Assembly (NCBI GenBank): GCA_946614165.1
Contig: CAMOGQ010000009.1
Span: forward strand, 1 to 45,386
Direction of reading: 5' to 3'
DNA length: 45,386 bases
DNA from: an uncultured Lachnospiraceae bacterium
GTDB taxonomy: Bacteria > Bacillota > Clostridia > Lachnospirales > Lachnospiraceae
Part shown: one piece after another, positions 18,160 through 23,596 of the stretch
How positions within the stretch are numbered: the first letter of the stretch is position 1
Layout of the letters: every line of letters starts with the position of its first letter
Notes under the pieces: model-generated
The model's database searches: none
What the model saw: the letters and a program-made list of their open reading frames with translations, nothing else
Told to the model about the DNA's origin: nothing
Made by a program: the position numbers and the translations under genes

Positions 18160-18203
18160 GTGTCAGGAGGTCTGCGGTGTGCTAGAATGTACTCGTGAGC
18201 ACG
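18160..18203 (+). promoter_or_regulatory. Promoter and operator-like box of the exonuclease operon
   Basis: GTGTCA is followed after 17 bases by TAGAAT at 18183-18188, preceded by TGC (extended -10). Directly downstream is ACTCGTGAGCAC, where GT.CTC..GAG.AC is a dyad across the expected start site. The same arrangement occurs before the kinase gene at 20990-21011, suggesting one repressor controls both. Confidence 0.6.
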
Positions 18204-18406
18204 TATGGCCCCTGCAGTGCCGGGGCTGAAAGATCAGAAAGGACGGGTCTTTCCGGAAGATGTGCATGCGCTTTGTCTTTTCATTCCTTCTGTGTAAGGA
18301 ACAGGCTGCAGACGGGACTTACGGGAAGTATTTGGAGGAAAGGGTTTTTACAGGACAGCCCTGGAAAAGGGGCCTTCCCGCCCGGTGTGAATCTGGAGGA
18401 TCGTAT

Positions 18407-19501
18407 ATGGACCGGATCTTTAAAGGGCGCGGAGTAAAAAAACATGTGGACAGCTACTGCATCGTTGACCTGGAAACGACAGGCGTTTTTGTCAGAAAGG
18501 CAAAAATCATAGAGATCTCCGCGGTCAGGGTCCGGGACAATCAGATCGATGCGCAGTACAGCCGTCTGGTCAATCCGGGCTGCCTGATCCCGGCGGAGGC
18601 TTCGGCCGTATGCCATATCACGGACGAGATGGTGAAAGAGTGTCCCTGCCTGGAGGATGTGATCGATTCTTTTATGGATTTTGTGGGCGGAGATGTGATC
18701 GTAGGCTATAACAACGCCGGGTTTGACATGAATCTGCTTTATGATGCCCGGATGGCCCTGCGGGGAAAGCCCTTCACCAATGACTATATTGACGTGCTGC
18801 ATGCTGCGAGGAGATGCCTCTCCGGAACAGAGGACCATAAGCTTGAAACGGTCTGCAGATACTATCACATTGATACCCAGGGGGAGCACAGGGCCCTGAA
18901 GGACTGCCTCCTGACAAAGGCGGTTTATGACAGCCTTTACAGGGACTACGGCGATGCGGCGTTCGGAAAAAGAGAAGAAAAAGGGACCGGCACTGTACAC
19001 TTTTCCCAGCAGCTGCTGACCCTCAGGGAACTCCGGTCTTTACTGGAAGCCGTGACCGGGGAGGGGATCTCTTCCCTTGACAGGCTCTTTTCTGCCCTGG
19101 ACCGGATACCGGAAGAGGGAAGTGAAATTCCGGAAGAAATGCAGGGCCTTTTCCCCGATTTCCTGGATCCTGTGAAAAGCCGGGGCTGTCATGAAAAAAT
19201 CGAAACTGTCAGGAACAGGCATATCGTAGTTACGGGAGATTTTTATTACGGCAGCAGAGAGGAGGTCCACGCACTGATTGAAGCGGCCGGAGGCATTGCC
19301 GATAAAGGAGTAAAAAAAGCAACGGACTACGTCGTTGTGGGCGGAAGAGGCAGCGCTGCCTGGAAAACAGGGAGATACGGCAGCAAGATCGAGAAAGCCA
19401 TTGCCCTGAAGGAGAAAGGACTGCCTGTGAAGATCGTTGAGGAATATGAGTTTATACCCGCGCTGAAACGCATGATCGAAAGGGGGATGCAGGAGGAATG
19501 A
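18407..19501 (+). CDS. DEDDh exonuclease (DnaQ-like) with C-terminal BRCT domain
   Basis: This is a 3'-5' exonuclease of the DnaQ/PolC-epsilon type. Exo I is VDLETTG with Asp21 and Glu23, Exo II is NNAGFD with Asp107, and Exo III is HRALKD with His161 and Asp166, so all catalytic residues are present. Residues about 268-350 form a BRCT domain (IVVTGDF, AGGIADKGVKKATDYVVVG), as in NAD-dependent DNA ligase, which binds DNA ends or phosphoproteins. The start at 18407 is chosen for its GGAGG site; the longer frame from 18260 lacks one. Its stop overlaps the next start (ATGA). With two coupled unknown genes it forms an operon whose promoter box resembles that of the nearby kinase. A DNA repair or nucleic-acid surveillance role is inferred. 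Confidence 0.9.
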   Translation: MDRIFKGRGVKKHVDSYCIVDLETTGVFVRKAKIIEISAVRVRDNQIDAQYSRLVNPGCLIPAEASAVCHITDEMVKECPCLEDVIDSFMDFVGGDVIVGYNNAGFDMNLLYDARMALRGKPFTNDYIDVLHAARRCLSGTEDHKLETVCRYYHIDTQGEHRALKDCLLTKAVYDSLYRDYGDAAFGKREEKGTGTVHFSQQLLTLRELRSLLEAVTGEGISSLDRLFSALDRIPEEGSEIPEEMQGLFPDFLDPVKSRGCHEKIETVRNRHIVVTGDFYYGSREEVHALIEAAGGIADKGVKKATDYVVVGGRGSAAWKTGRYGSKIEKAIALKEKGLPVKIVEEYEFIPALKRMIERGMQEE

Positions 19502-20133
19502 GCTCCGCTTCGGAAAAAACGGATGACAGACCGTGGCAGCAGAAAATCCGGGATATGCTGGAAGACCTGATCCGGGAATATGAACTGCCGGCCGGTTCTC
19601 TGTACCTGTCCGACAACTACGGCCAGGTCGAGCGGACCCGGGATATGCTTGTAAGCCATACCGTCTGTATCTGGGAGCCGGATTATCCCCCTGTGCCCGG
19701 TGAAAAGCCGGGGCAGAACAGGATCGTGGCAACGATCGTTCCCAGCAGGGCCAAAAAGCGGCCGGATGATCTGGACATTTATCTCAGAGAAATACAGGAG
19801 GGAGACCTGCATCTGTTCCTGCCCGAAGACGCGCAGCTGCTGGAACAGACCGCAGCTGACAGGAAGAGTGGTACGGTGAAGGTACGGATCAGAAAGGATT
19901 CTCCCCGCCTCGCGGAATATATCCGGCGGAACATGGTCTACTGCATTGAGGGATATGTGTCAAAAGCGGCAGGATTTGCCTGCTGCAGTTCTTTTATCAG
20001 ATGCTCGGATGCAGGGAAGTGCGTTCATGAAAACAGGCTGTATTCCAAGGCCTGCATGTACCGGGGCAACCTGGATCAGGGCCGGATCTTTTACGGGAAA
20101 AACAGAAATGCCGGTCAGGGGGAATGCTTATGA
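19498..20133 (+). CDS. Cys-rich protein of unknown function, coupled to the exonuclease
   Basis: The 211-residue protein has no signal peptide or membrane segment. The first 150 residues are mixed alpha/beta with many charged residues. The C-terminal 65 carry a cysteine cluster (ACCSSFIRCSDAGKC, then KACMYRG and a final C) that looks able to bind zinc or an iron-sulfur cluster. The closing RIFYGKN is reminiscent of small clostridial Cys-rich domains, but I cannot name a family. Its ATG overlaps the TGA of the exonuclease by four bases, so translation is coupled. The next gene overlaps its end in the same way. A role together with the exonuclease is inferred from this coupling. Confidence 0.7.
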   Translation: MSSASEKTDDRPWQQKIRDMLEDLIREYELPAGSLYLSDNYGQVERTRDMLVSHTVCIWEPDYPPVPGEKPGQNRIVATIVPSRAKKRPDDLDIYLREIQEGDLHLFLPEDAQLLEQTAADRKSGTVKVRIRKDSPRLAEYIRRNMVYCIEGYVSKAAGFACCSSFIRCSDAGKCVHENRLYSKACMYRGNLDQGRIFYGKNRNAGQGECL

Positions 20134-20471
20134 CACGGGAAGTCAGGATCGGAGAAGAGACTGTCATCCTGGATTCGGAAAAACTGTATTCAGGTATCGA
20201 GAATCCGGGCAGGGAGGAGGGGAATGCAAGAAAAGCCCTGGGCCTTCCTGCAAAAAGGCAGCTTGTCTTTTATAAAGACAGGAAGGACCCAGGGTCTGCG
20301 GCCAGGATCGTAAAATACCGATTGGTCAGGATGCATGGGGAGGAAGAACCCTGGTACACAGTGGAGATCACTCTGGAGGACGGCTCCCTGGCCAGGATCC
20401 ACTCGGGCTTTCTTGCAGAAATGCAAAAGAGCGGCTTTATGGAAGAGATGGGCCGTGCGGCGGCTGAATAA
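20130..20471 (+). CDS. Small protein of unknown function, third gene of the exonuclease operon
   Basis: The 113-residue protein is predicted soluble, and I do not recognise a family. It has a short N-terminal beta stretch (REVRIGEETVILD), a basic middle and a C-terminal RLVRMHGEEEPWYTVEITL segment. An ATG at 20124 and one at 20130 are both possible. I prefer 20130 because it gives the same ATGA overlap as the junction before it and sits eight bases from GGGGGA. It ends 10 bases before the convergent XRE gene. Confidence 0.65.
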   Translation: MTREVRIGEETVILDSEKLYSGIENPGREEGNARKALGLPAKRQLVFYKDRKDPGSAARIVKYRLVRMHGEEEPWYTVEITLEDGSLARIHSGFLAEMQKSGFMEEMGRAAAE

Positions 20472-20481
20472 GGCTTCGCAC

Positions 20482-20916
20482 TCAGCCCAGCAGGGCCTCT
20501 CCGAACTGGTCCAGCAGGTCATCCGTTTCCGTAGTATCCAGACCGGACCGGATGGCAAAGATCAGGATGGCGTCCCTTCTGTCCCTGGAATATAATACGC
20601 CCAGTTTTCCCAGTTCCAGGACCCGCTGGGTCTCTTCCAGGGACAGCCTCGCTCCGATACACAGGCGCAGGACTTTTTCCCGGGAAGGGGTCCGTCTGCC
20701 GTTCAGGATCTGGTAAAGATAGGAACGCTCAATGCCGCTTTTGAGCACCAGGTCTTTCCCTGTCATGGCTCTTGGCCCGGGAAGGGAAAGAAAGTAATCT
20801 ATAGGGCCTGTGCCTACAGACTCGCCCGGAAGCCTGTCCAGATAGTCTTCCAGCTCCTGTTTCCCCGAAGTCTTTTCCAGTATCCGGGTCAGTTCGTCAG
20901 TTTTTTTCTTATCCAT
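20482..20916 (-). CDS. XRE-family helix-turn-helix regulator
   Basis: The 144-residue regulator has a Cro/C1-type helix-turn-helix around residues 51-105, including TGKDLVLKSGIERSYLYQIL and NGRRTPS. The N-terminal 45 residues are charged and helical, and the C-terminal part resembles that of regulators paired with Ser/Thr kinases in Clostridia. The start at 20916 is chosen because AGGAGA lies eight bases upstream; a frame from 20961 lacks that. It is divergent from the kinase gene, with 131 bases between the starts that hold a 14-bp inverted repeat and the kinase operator-like box. It is the obvious candidate to bind that box and the related one at 18192. That is inference. Confidence 0.85.
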   Translation of the reverse strand: MDKKKTDELTRILEKTSGKQELEDYLDRLPGESVGTGPIDYFLSLPGPRAMTGKDLVLKSGIERSYLYQILNGRRTPSREKVLRLCIGARLSLEETQRVLELGKLGVLYSRDRRDAILIFAIRSGLDTTETDDLLDQFGEALLG

Positions 20917-20977
20917 TTTCTGTCTCTCCTGTATTGATGTTCTTAAGGTGTCCTCTTTCATGAACAGTATTTCTTAA

Positions 20978-21033
20978 TTAGTAAATTTATGGTAAAATGC
21001 ACTCGAGCGCACATCTGAGCATAAATTTACTAA
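20978..21033. promoter_or_regulatory. Kinase promoter with 14-bp inverted repeat and operator-like box
   Basis: TTAGTAAATTTATG (20978-20991) is repeated exactly in inverted orientation at 21020-21033. Between them are TAAAAT (20993-20998), preceded by TGG, and directly after it ACTCGAGCGCAC. The box matches the one before the exonuclease operon in position and most bases. The right arm lies just upstream of the kinase ribosome site. The symmetry suggests regulator binding to both arms, or a hairpin in the leader. Confidence 0.65.
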
Positions 21034-21047
21034 AAAAGGAGGACATT

Positions 21048-22106
21048 ATGACGGATTCTGCTCTGAAAGATAAATGTGAACGATCCTTTCTGAAAGTATT
21101 ATACCATCTGAAAAGGTCCGGGCAAAGTATTGTAATCGATGAAACCACAGATCGGCTTTATCTGCAGAAGTGCCTGGATCATTATGACAGAAAGGTCTAT
21201 GAGTATCTGAAGGCCCACCCCTGCCCCCAAACACCCGGGATCCGGCTCATATGGGAAGAAGACGGGAAGCTCTTTCTGACGGAGGAATTAATAGCAGGGG
21301 ATTCCCTGGAGACCTGCCTGGAGAAGAACAGCCTTACGGAAGAGGAAAAACGGGTGATTCTGGAGGACGTCTGCAGAGCCCTGATCTTCCTGCACCGGGC
21401 AGATCCGCCGCTGATCCACAGAGACGTAAAGGCTTCCAACATCATGGTAACCAGAGAGAAAAGAGGAGTCCTGATCGATTTTGACGTCTCAAAACTCTAT
21501 AAGGAAGGAAAAACAGAGGATACGACACTGTACGGTACGACCGGTACGGCGGCTCCGGAGCAGTACGGCTTCGGCCAGTCCGATGCCAGAACGGATATCT
21601 TTGCCCTGGGAAAACTGATCGGCCGTCTGTTTCCGGAGAATCCTTCCTGGGAGAAGGTCGCAGAAAAGGCGTCAAGCTTCCACCCCAGGGACCGCTATGC
21701 CAGTGTTGCCGGCATGATGGAACATTTCCCTTCCTGCAAAGAGGAAGCAGAGAAAAAGACGGTAAAGGTCCCCGTTCTCTGTCATCTGCCCGGATTCCGG
21801 TCCGGAAAGACGGAAAACATGGCGGCAGCCCTGGCCCTTTATGGCATTTTTCTTTTCGTCTCCCTGACACTGTCGGTGGAAAATGCATCAGGTCCGTTTG
21901 AGATCTGGCTCAACCGGTTCTTTACTTTGCTGATCGGCATCAACTGGATCTCCCTTTTCACGGATCTTGGCTTCCCCTATTCCCGCCTGCCGCTTTTAAG
22001 GTCCGCCAATCCTCTGGTCCGCCTTTTAAGCTACGGAGCTGCGGCGGCCCTGATTTTTGCCACCTGGATCACGGTCCTGGTCCTTCTTTCGGCCTTCCTG
22101 TTCTGA
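21048..22106 (+). CDS. Membrane-anchored Ser/Thr protein kinase
   Basis: This eukaryotic-like kinase has its catalytic domain at residues 1 to about 225. The ATP lysine is probably Lys41 (LYLQKCLDHYD). The catalytic loop HRDVKASN has His124, Asp126, Lys128 and Asn131. The metal motif is DFD (144-146) instead of DFG, and GTTGTAAPEQYGFGQ is the activation and substrate segment. No glycine-rich loop is recognisable. Three or so C-terminal hydrophobic segments (about 258-276, 288-305, 325-351) anchor it with the kinase in the cytoplasm. There is no PASTA or other sensor domain. AAGGAGG precedes the ATG at 21048; a longer frame from 20997 crosses the operator region and is rejected. It is divergent from an XRE regulator. 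Targets are unknown. Confidence 0.88.
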   Translation: MTDSALKDKCERSFLKVLYHLKRSGQSIVIDETTDRLYLQKCLDHYDRKVYEYLKAHPCPQTPGIRLIWEEDGKLFLTEELIAGDSLETCLEKNSLTEEEKRVILEDVCRALIFLHRADPPLIHRDVKASNIMVTREKRGVLIDFDVSKLYKEGKTEDTTLYGTTGTAAPEQYGFGQSDARTDIFALGKLIGRLFPENPSWEKVAEKASSFHPRDRYASVAGMMEHFPSCKEEAEKKTVKVPVLCHLPGFRSGKTENMAAALALYGIFLFVSLTLSVENASGPFEIWLNRFFTLLIGINWISLFTDLGFPYSRLPLLRSANPLVRLLSYGAAAALIFATWITVLVLLSAFLF

Positions 22107-22189
22107 AGGAGTCAGATACACCTGGATTTCTGACAAAAATATGAATCCTTTATTTTGTGTGCAGCCAGCACACCAAAAGGAGAGAGGAT

Positions 22190-22369
22190 ATGCATACAAT
22201 AAGGATGCATCCGGGGATTTCCTTCCAGGATGTCATCCTCAGATACATTCCTCTGCTTGCAAGTCAGGCACCTCTTAATGCCCGGGCACCTTTCATAAGG
22301 CGGCCGCGGGGCCGGAGAGTCTCTCTCCCCGGTCCTGCGGCCGCTGTCCGTATATGGTTCTGCTGTTAA
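22190..22369 (+). CDS. Possible 59-residue small protein
   Basis: AAGGAG (22178-22183) lies six bases before the ATG at 22190, an ideal ribosome site. The product starts MHTIRMHPGISFQDVILRY and ends RIWFCC, with a hydrophobic patch (VILRYIPLLASQ) and an Arg/Pro-rich end. The Arg/Pro part is encoded by a long palindromic hairpin, which argues against an ordinary protein. It may instead be a gene start joined to a terminator-like structure. Treat it as tentative. Confidence 0.3.
   Translation: MHTIRMHPGISFQDVILRYIPLLASQAPLNARAPFIRRPRGRRVSLPGPAAAVRIWFCC
22300..22344. repeat. GC-rich imperfect stem-loop
   Basis: GCGGCCGC begins and ends the element, and the inner arms pair with only three mismatched positions, all of which can form G-U pairs on one strand. 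No T run follows, so it is probably not a standard terminator. It might end the kinase transcript with help from a factor, or protect its 3' end. Confidence 0.6.
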
Positions 22370-22459: not shown

Positions 22460-23596
22460 ATGAAATCACTGATTGAAAACTGCATGAAGCTGGGATTCGG
22501 CATGATGCGTCTGCCCAGGATTTCCGTGAACGGAGAAGAAGTCATTGACGTGGAACAGACAAAGGACATGGTGGATGCTTTTCTGGCAGCAGGCGGCAGA
22601 TATATAGACACGGCCTTTGTCTATACGGGGTCTGAGGAAGCCACCAGAAAAGCCCTGGTGGAACGCTATCCCAGAGACGCCTATTATCTGGCCACCAAGC
22701 TCAATGCCGGCAGCTGGGCCGCCAAAAACGAGCAGGAGGCCAAGGACCAGTTCCGGATCAGCCTTGAGAGGACAGGGGCAGGCTACTTTGACTTCTATCT
22801 GCTCCATGCCCTGGGCAAAGGTAATGTCGAATTCTACGACAAATACGGGATCTGGGACTATGTAAAGGAACTGAAGAAGGAAGGGCTCATCCGGCACTGG
22901 GGCTTTTCCTTCCATGACAGTCCGGAATTTCTGGACAAGCTTCTGACCGACCATCCGGATGCGGAATTCGTCCAGCTGCAGATCAACTATGCGGACTGGG
23001 AGGACGCGGAAGTTCAGTCCAGGGCCTGCTACGAAGTGGCGGCAAAGCATGACAAGCCTGTGGTAGTCATGGAGCCTGTCAAGGGCGGCACCCTGGCCAA
23101 TCCTCCCGAGGTGGTAAAGGAAGTCTTACAGGCAGAAAATCCTTCCCCTTCCTATGCTTCCTGGGCTATCCGTTTTGCGGCTTCCCTTCCCCAGGTCATG
23201 GTGGTCCTTTCCGGCATGTCCAGCAGGGAACAGATGGCTGACAATCTTTCCTACATGGCTCTGGACAAATACGCTCCCCTGACAGACAGGGAAGGAAAGG
23301 CCATCGAAAAGGCCAGAGAAGCCCTGAATTCCATAGAGCGCATCCCCTGCACCGCCTGCCGCTACTGCACCGGAGGATGTCCCATGAAGATCAACATTCC
23401 CGAGATCTTCAGCATCATGAACGAATACAAGCTCTACGGAAATCTGAACAAGGCAAAAAGACAGTATGCCATGGCGGGACAGGAAGGCAGCTCTCTGGCC
23501 GATGCCTGCAAAAAGTGCGGTCAGTGTGAGGGAGCATGTCCCCAGCATCTGCCCATCATCACCCATTTGGAAGAGATCGCATCCGTCCTGGGATAA
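22460..23596 (+). CDS. Aldo/keto reductase with two C-terminal 4Fe-4S clusters
   Basis: This is a redox enzyme with an AKR TIM barrel (about 1-280) followed by a ferredoxin-like tail. The catalytic tetrad is Asp50, Tyr55, Lys80 and His116. The tail has Cys297, Cys300, Cys303 and Cys307 and then Cys350, Cys353, Cys356 and Cys360, enough for two 4Fe-4S clusters. The architecture is common in anaerobic Clostridia and suggests electron transfer between a nicotinamide or substrate site and a low-potential carrier. The substrate is unknown. It has its own promoter and a terminator (23642) and is clearly paralogous to the gene at 42079. The chosen ATG at 22460 follows GAGGTAAGGG; a later Met9 is less likely. 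Confidence 0.92.
   Translation: MKSLIENCMKLGFGMMRLPRISVNGEEVIDVEQTKDMVDAFLAAGGRYIDTAFVYTGSEEATRKALVERYPRDAYYLATKLNAGSWAAKNEQEAKDQFRISLERTGAGYFDFYLLHALGKGNVEFYDKYGIWDYVKELKKEGLIRHWGFSFHDSPEFLDKLLTDHPDAEFVQLQINYADWEDAEVQSRACYEVAAKHDKPVVVMEPVKGGTLANPPEVVKEVLQAENPSPSYASWAIRFAASLPQVMVVLSGMSSREQMADNLSYMALDKYAPLTDREGKAIEKAREALNSIERIPCTACRYCTGGCPMKINIPEIFSIMNEYKLYGNLNKAKRQYAMAGQEGSSLADACKKCGQCEGACPQHLPIITHLEEIASVLG

Follow-up and report, generated by a model that had tools for sequence, protein, structure and literature searches.

We have analysed a 45,386-nucleotide stretch of DNA from an uncultured Lachnospiraceae bacterium (contig CAMOGQ010000009.1 of assembly GCA_946614165.1; hereafter the window), in which the gene of an XRE-type regulator lies divergently beside that of a Ser/Thr kinase and convergently to an operon of three genes, an exonuclease gene (exo) and two others (u1 and u2). 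The best explanation of the locus, to which we give a probability of about 0.55, is that the XRE–kinase pair acts, at least partly, through a 17-bp dyad with a −10 element 21 bp downstream. The original prediction, made from the letters of the window, placed XRE control elsewhere, at a box that the promoters of the exonuclease and the kinase have in common.

The link between the XRE gene and the kinase gene is strong, the two forming a recurrent divergent pair. Matches to the XRE protein are found in 147 of 397 genomes of the family and in 41 of 62 genomes of the genus, and 59 XRE loci (the best hits, one per genome, with about 1.5 kb of flanking DNA) were compared. A kinase gene is divergently adjacent at 42 of the 59 and lies in another orientation at 3; the other 14 have no kinase in the fetched DNA, some being at contig ends or having the kinase just beyond. 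In the reciprocal test, 30 of the 43 close kinases listed have a divergent XRE gene within 1.5 kb and 35 have one in any orientation, as against 1 of 24 weaker kinases. This pairing, together with the operon-like overlaps of exo, u1 and u2, is the part of the single regulon originally proposed that stands; shared control through the box is the part that is not supported.

The kinase is of the Hanks type, with a Pkinase match over the cut-off and the catalytic motifs HRD, DFD and APE at residues 124, 144 and 169. The XRE protein is assigned a helix-turn-helix (HTH) domain from an HTH_31 match below the cut-off (Table 1) and a confident structural model (mean predicted local distance difference test score, pLDDT, 84.9), which is made up entirely of helices, those of an HTH core and extra ones at the C-terminus; a Foldseek search with the HTH part ranks XRE structures first, none at an E-value below 0.001. 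A second divergent XRE–kinase pair (33% and 36% identical) is found on contig C21 of the window's own genome (G000; 3.78 Mb, 88% complete) at L202 2683–4232, with no box in the fetched stretch. Relatives of the XRE protein are also present in phages (6 records), with 31–35% identity for the 5 that are listed. None of the titles and abstract openings listed in our literature searches describes this XRE–kinase pair. Known targets are few for the Hanks-type kinases of gut clostridia, and a recurrent divergent XRE partner plus a recurring operator of fixed promoter geometry amounts to a directly testable pathway from kinase to promoter.

The dyad element of the window lies 50 bp past the kinase stop codon and is unique in the window, where none is expected. 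At the same place G003, the only genome of the 62 besides G000 in which u1 and a close XRE gene occur together, has GTGGGC-AGGCA-GCACAC and, again after 21 bp, TAAAAT. Eight loci of the genus share GTGGGCTGnCAGCCCAC upstream of the XRE gene; seven have tandem XRE genes and L073 is cut by the contig end. At 7 of the eight each side of the dyad has a −10 element at a distance of exactly 21 bp, one facing the XRE gene and one in the direction of the kinase, and the contig ends on one side of the L064 dyad. Between the kinase and the nearer XRE gene there are 2.8 kb at L059 and 0.7 kb at L062. Over all the DNA examined, 37 of 81 distinct oriented sites of the form GTGNGC-N5-GCNCAC have a 5/6 −10 at offset 21, with no other offset reaching more than 2. 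Part of this DNA was fetched by a search for the dyad, none of it by the −10, and there is therefore no circularity in the offset result; the count for other spacers (2, 2, 2 and 0 sites for N3, N4, N6 and N7) is circular, the N5 form having been the one searched. Offset 21 gives an operator at a fixed distance that covers the −35 region, as is characteristic of class II activators.

Of the 59 XRE loci, 11 have the element, as against 0 of 80 comparison loci of about the same length (22 box-pattern, 28 exo and 30 lexA loci, those of G000 and G003 being excluded from the first two groups). The dyad was discovered at 8 of these 11 loci, and L025, L055 and L030 (from another genus) are independent. 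Over the 62 genomes GTGGGCTNNNAGCCCAC occurs at up to one mismatch at 64 places, compared with 12 for the reversed control. Exact copies are found in 14 of the genomes, and an XRE protein scoring at least 80 bits is found in 11 of these 14 as against 11 of the 48 without an exact copy; among the remaining three of the 14, G024 has its copy inside a coding gene and G046 has no XRE hit. At L261 the dyad directly follows the kinase stop codon, as in the window. The recognition-helix residues, compared by eye, are nearly the same in the window XRE protein and in those of the dyad loci. Genes downstream of the dyad promoters include those of predicted lipoproteins (signal sequences judged by eye) and of zinc-ribbon, TPR and LRR proteins. 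We take the element itself to be real; the XRE protein is the likely reader of the dyad, and the element past the kinase is the leading candidate for its operator in the window.

Between this element and the next annotated gene, that of an aldo/keto reductase, lies a structured non-coding stretch (Table 1) which is 95.7% identical to its counterpart in G003, compared with 77% for the main alignment of the locus. The fold of positions 22207–22360 has a z-score of −4.5. The stretch has a GC-rich hairpin, which is very strong, and gives no Rfam match over a gathering score. It is possibly a small RNA, or else a leader to the aldo/keto reductase gene.

On this reading, the locus has at its core a two-gene signalling pair, made up of an XRE regulator and, encoded divergently, a Ser/Thr kinase of which that regulator is the probable target. 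The pair would work, at least in part, through the dyad GTGKGC-N5-GCMCAC, which, ending 21 bp before the −10, would have its centre near −42, where a class II activator would sit. We infer that the XRE protein binds the dyad and activates from it, and that the kinase phosphorylates the XRE protein. At the related loci a single dyad, GTGGGC-N5-GCCCAC, faces two promoters, on one side that of the XRE gene and on the other one that runs in the direction of the kinase, and in the window the element would drive the structured RNA, the aldo/keto reductase gene or both. A wider picture can be drawn, which is tentative and, taken as a whole, somewhat doubtful: that of a system of one kinase and one regulator, recurrent in the family, in which a membrane-anchored Hanks kinase phosphorylates a dedicated XRE protein, and this, as a class II activator, switches on its own gene, the kinase gene, genes for lipoproteins and for zinc-ribbon, TPR and LRR proteins and, in this lineage, the structured RNA, the exonuclease–BRCT operon having been added beside them.

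Several observations weigh against the dyad being the site of the XRE protein. The element is missing from 48 of the 59 XRE loci as fetched, and from the fetched stretch of the second XRE–kinase pair of G000. An exact dyad with GATAAT at 21 bp in G046 and a one-mismatch dyad with TACAGT at 21 bp in G040 are found in genomes that have no XRE hit, so that the dyad could belong to some other factor. The co-occurrence of exact GTGGGCTNNNAGCCCAC copies with the XRE protein has a Fisher p of 2.6 × 10−4 with the relatedness of the genomes ignored. A hairpin, seen by eye, directly follows the −10 at L261 2310, L272 1501, L279 1501 and L255 1501, which is odd for an activated promoter. These hairpin promoters suggest short attenuated transcripts or tiny RNAs, and the one at L261 comes right after the kinase.

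The box of the original prediction is present as it was described: both promoters have the −10 followed at once by the related box, both 20-mers match TANAATGNACTCGNGNGCAC with 0 mismatches, and the 14-bp inverted repeats on either side of the kinase copy are perfect. At up to 3 mismatches TANAATGNACTCGNGNGCAC finds only these two 20-mers in the window, where 0.14 are expected and two matches arose in 2 of 100 shuffles. The exonuclease promoter is sigma-70-like (GTGTCA-17-TAGAAT with TG). Of the 14 bases 3′ of the −10, 11 agree between the exonuclease and kinase promoters, and the box itself is an imperfect 14-bp dyad, TGyACwC-GwGTrCA, a feature that the original prediction did not mention. 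It overlies both start points and could be a candidate second site, of the repressor type.

Chance together with common promoter features, with no protein reading the box, accounts for the similarity best of the explanations considered, and we put it not far short of even odds. The 11 sites of the strict extended −10, TGnTAnAAT, in the window make 55 pairs, among which the runner-up agrees at 7 of 14 positions; the analytic chance of a match as good as that of the box pair is ~1 × 10−4 per pair, and in 300 Markov-simulated sequences an agreement of at least 11/14 was reached 0 times, which speaks against chance, albeit with a null that is too kind, having a mean of 2.7 such sites per random sequence compared with 11 in the real one. 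With looser −10 patterns (TGnTAnnnT and TAnAAT), at least 11/14 was reached in 5 of 300 for each when the sites were within 5 kb, and in 18 and 15 of 300, respectively, with no distance limit, which is in favour of chance. The match of the box is therefore above chance, only modestly so after the freedom of choice is counted, and is suggestive only. The dyad symmetry of the kinase box, which has 6 of 7 pairs matched, also speaks against chance; the exonuclease box has 4/7 and that of the kinase promoter of G003 5/7, and exactly 6, 5 and 4 pairs are found in 0.17%, 1.4% and 5.9% of the 14-mers of the window.

Conservation of the box, near background, also fits with chance. G003 is the one ortholog, its XRE protein being 94%, its kinase 81% and its exonuclease (in two pieces) 69–73% identical to those of the window. 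Its kinase promoter keeps the −10 (6/6), and the box is identical at 10 of 14 positions as against 71 of 114 in the rest of the intergenic region, where 60 of 119 windows of 14 bases do as well; the kinase box is thus hardly better conserved than its surroundings, and the inverted repeat around it is not kept. The G003 contig starts 117 bp before the exonuclease start codon, so that the exonuclease promoter falls beyond its end, and searching for the upstream DNA returned short hits only. Among the 42 XRE–kinase intergenic regions, some of them short or cut, 40 have no box skeleton, only G000 and G003 having it, and no common motif is found in more than 5. Two distant exo–u1 loci with readable upstream DNA, L155 and L159, have neither a box nor an XRE or kinase match in the stretches read, which is neutral.

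A scan of G000 for a box regulon returned, at up to 2 mismatches, just the exonuclease and kinase promoter copies. A loosened pattern gave 35 sites in G000 compared with 29 for its reversed control, which again is in favour of chance. Eight further places with the loosened pattern were read: those on C127 and C151 are inside coding genes, those on C43 (a perfect palindrome) and C60 are intergenic and have no promoter layout like that of the window, and from those on C22, C32, C40 and C92 no conclusion is drawn. The C43 palindrome, TGTACACGTGTACA within GAAATGTACACGTGTACATTTC (L205 3250–3263), lies between divergent genes which by eye are NUDIX-like and YdcF-like. Across the genus the scan returned 24 sites, including the two of the window, compared with 14 for the reversed control; two further sites were read, the one-mismatch copies in G023 and G033, and these have no neighbours matching the five window proteins.

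Repression by the XRE protein of the exonuclease operon and of the kinase, in both cases through the box, as was originally proposed, we now consider unlikely. In its favour are the 11/14 match, a degree of dyad symmetry in each of the three copies (that of G003 included), and the position of the two window sites in the neighbourhood of the XRE gene and nowhere else in G000 at up to 2 mismatches. Palindromes close to their own gene are also frequent binding sites of XRE proteins (PMC12565409). In the box the half-sites, RTGNNC, are loosely like GTGGGC with a spacing one base shorter, a likeness noticed after the fact, so that the box may be a weaker second XRE site. Set against this are the near-background conservation of the box in G003, the lack of its skeleton in 40 of the 42 intergenic regions, and the different dyad, which recurs and fits the family better; because the recognition helix is nearly the same in the XRE proteins of loci with that quite different dyad, the box is disfavoured as the main XRE site. 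XRE control of the exonuclease operon, its membership of a regulon and a role in defence all follow from the box and are unproven, and the box finding as given is no evidence for the exonuclease operon as a defence regulon.

That the box is read by a different repressor, such as one of the LacI type, is less probable again. At the third base from the centre LacI-type sites usually have an A, whereas each of the six half-sites has a C there, and G000 has just two sites at up to 2 mismatches. LacI-family sites are described with a central CG and were searched for as 14-bp palindromes (PMC2978694), and the box, of 14 bp with outer TG..CA and a central CG, agrees with both, although its palindrome is imperfect. 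A degenerate LexA site is very improbable: the half-site spacing equals that of the consensus GAAC-N4-GTTC and SOS control would suit a nuclease, but the regions upstream of lexA in G000 and most of 29 others carry, by eye, CGAACA/GTTTG-type repeats, half-sites which the G000 boxes do not have, and we rejected an SOS box.

Beside the XRE–kinase pair, the observed overlaps support an operon-like arrangement of exo, u1 and u2. At L159 (1335–2885) exonuclease, BRCT and the Cys-cluster protein u1 are joined in a single open reading frame and, because of this fusion and the overlapping genes, exo and u1 probably act together. The conserved motif of u1 is CC-x5-C-x5-C-x10-C. The gene is present in 3 of the 62 genus genomes and viral contigs gave one distant u1 fragment; the predicted structure is of low confidence (pLDDT 62) and no reading rests on it. 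The operon and the XRE gene converge at 20465–20490 with their stop codons 10 nt apart, and the terminator scan found no terminator-like site on the + strand between 20260 and 22065, so that overlapping (antisense) transcripts are possible. The best matches in PADLOC are PD-T4-6 models on the kinase domain and DEDDh on the exonuclease domain, with no match for u1, u2 or the XRE protein.

Table 1 Positions in the window of the genes, promoters and candidate elements discussed
Feature	Position	Strand	Remarks
Exonuclease promoter	18183..18202	+	Extended −10 TGC TAGAAT with box; dyad TGTACTCGTGAGCA at 18188–18201
DEDDh exonuclease (exo)	18407..19501	+	Pfam RNase_T 3.6e-30; weak C-terminal BRCT, 0.015, below cut-off
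u1	19498..20133	+	Conserved C-terminal Cys cluster; overlaps exo; no Pfam family over cut-off
u2	20124..20471	+	Overlaps u1; no Pfam family over cut-off; 60% identical in G003
XRE/HTH regulator	20482..20916	−	HTH_31 2e-5, 25.2 bits against cut-off of 27; convergent with u2, divergent from kinase
Left arm of perfect 14-bp inverted repeat	20978..20991		9/14 in G003
Kinase promoter	20993..21012	+	−10 TAAAAT with box; dyad TGCACTCGAGCGCA at 20998–21011
Right arm of perfect 14-bp inverted repeat	21020..21033		5/14 in G003
Hanks-type Ser/Thr kinase	21048..22106	+	Pkinase 4.4e-21, over cut-off; hydrophobic C-terminus (by eye)
Candidate operator GTGTGC-AGCCA-GCACAC	22157..22173	+	Leading candidate XRE site
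−10 TACAAT	22195..22200	+	Exactly 21 bp after candidate operator; no match in 100 shuffles
Structured non-coding stretch	22236..22351	+	Possible small RNA or leader; compared with G003 over 117 columns
Aldo/keto reductase with 4Fe-4S domain	22460..23596	+	Next annotated gene downstream of operator promoter

The best model for the BRCT part of the exonuclease is that of the PRK06195-type exonuclease–BRCT proteins, which is DNA polymerase III epsilon-like (78 bits against a cut-off of 373); unlike those proteins, the exonuclease–BRCT here goes together with the Cys-cluster protein u1, either coupled to it or as a fusion. In HipBA an XRE repressor is combined with the Ser/Thr kinase HipA, and the pair described here resembles it in joining an XRE DNA-binding protein to a Ser/Thr kinase. 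It differs in that the window kinase matches Pkinase, with no HipA model among its hits, and in that the genes are divergent, here and at the 42 loci, rather than forming an antitoxin–toxin operon; the pair is not known to be toxic. DdrO, the Deinococcus XRE repressor of DNA-damage genes, has the best Foldseek rank with the HTH part (E = 0.042, not significant), and it represses repair genes much as the original prediction would have the window XRE protein do. By sequence the nearest solved relatives are the C proteins of restriction–modification systems, C.AhdI and C.BclI (E = 0.0007 and 0.0034). C proteins and lambda CI can activate from operators near −42; the window XRE protein shares the XRE fold with them and, unlike them, has extra C-terminal helices and a kinase partner.

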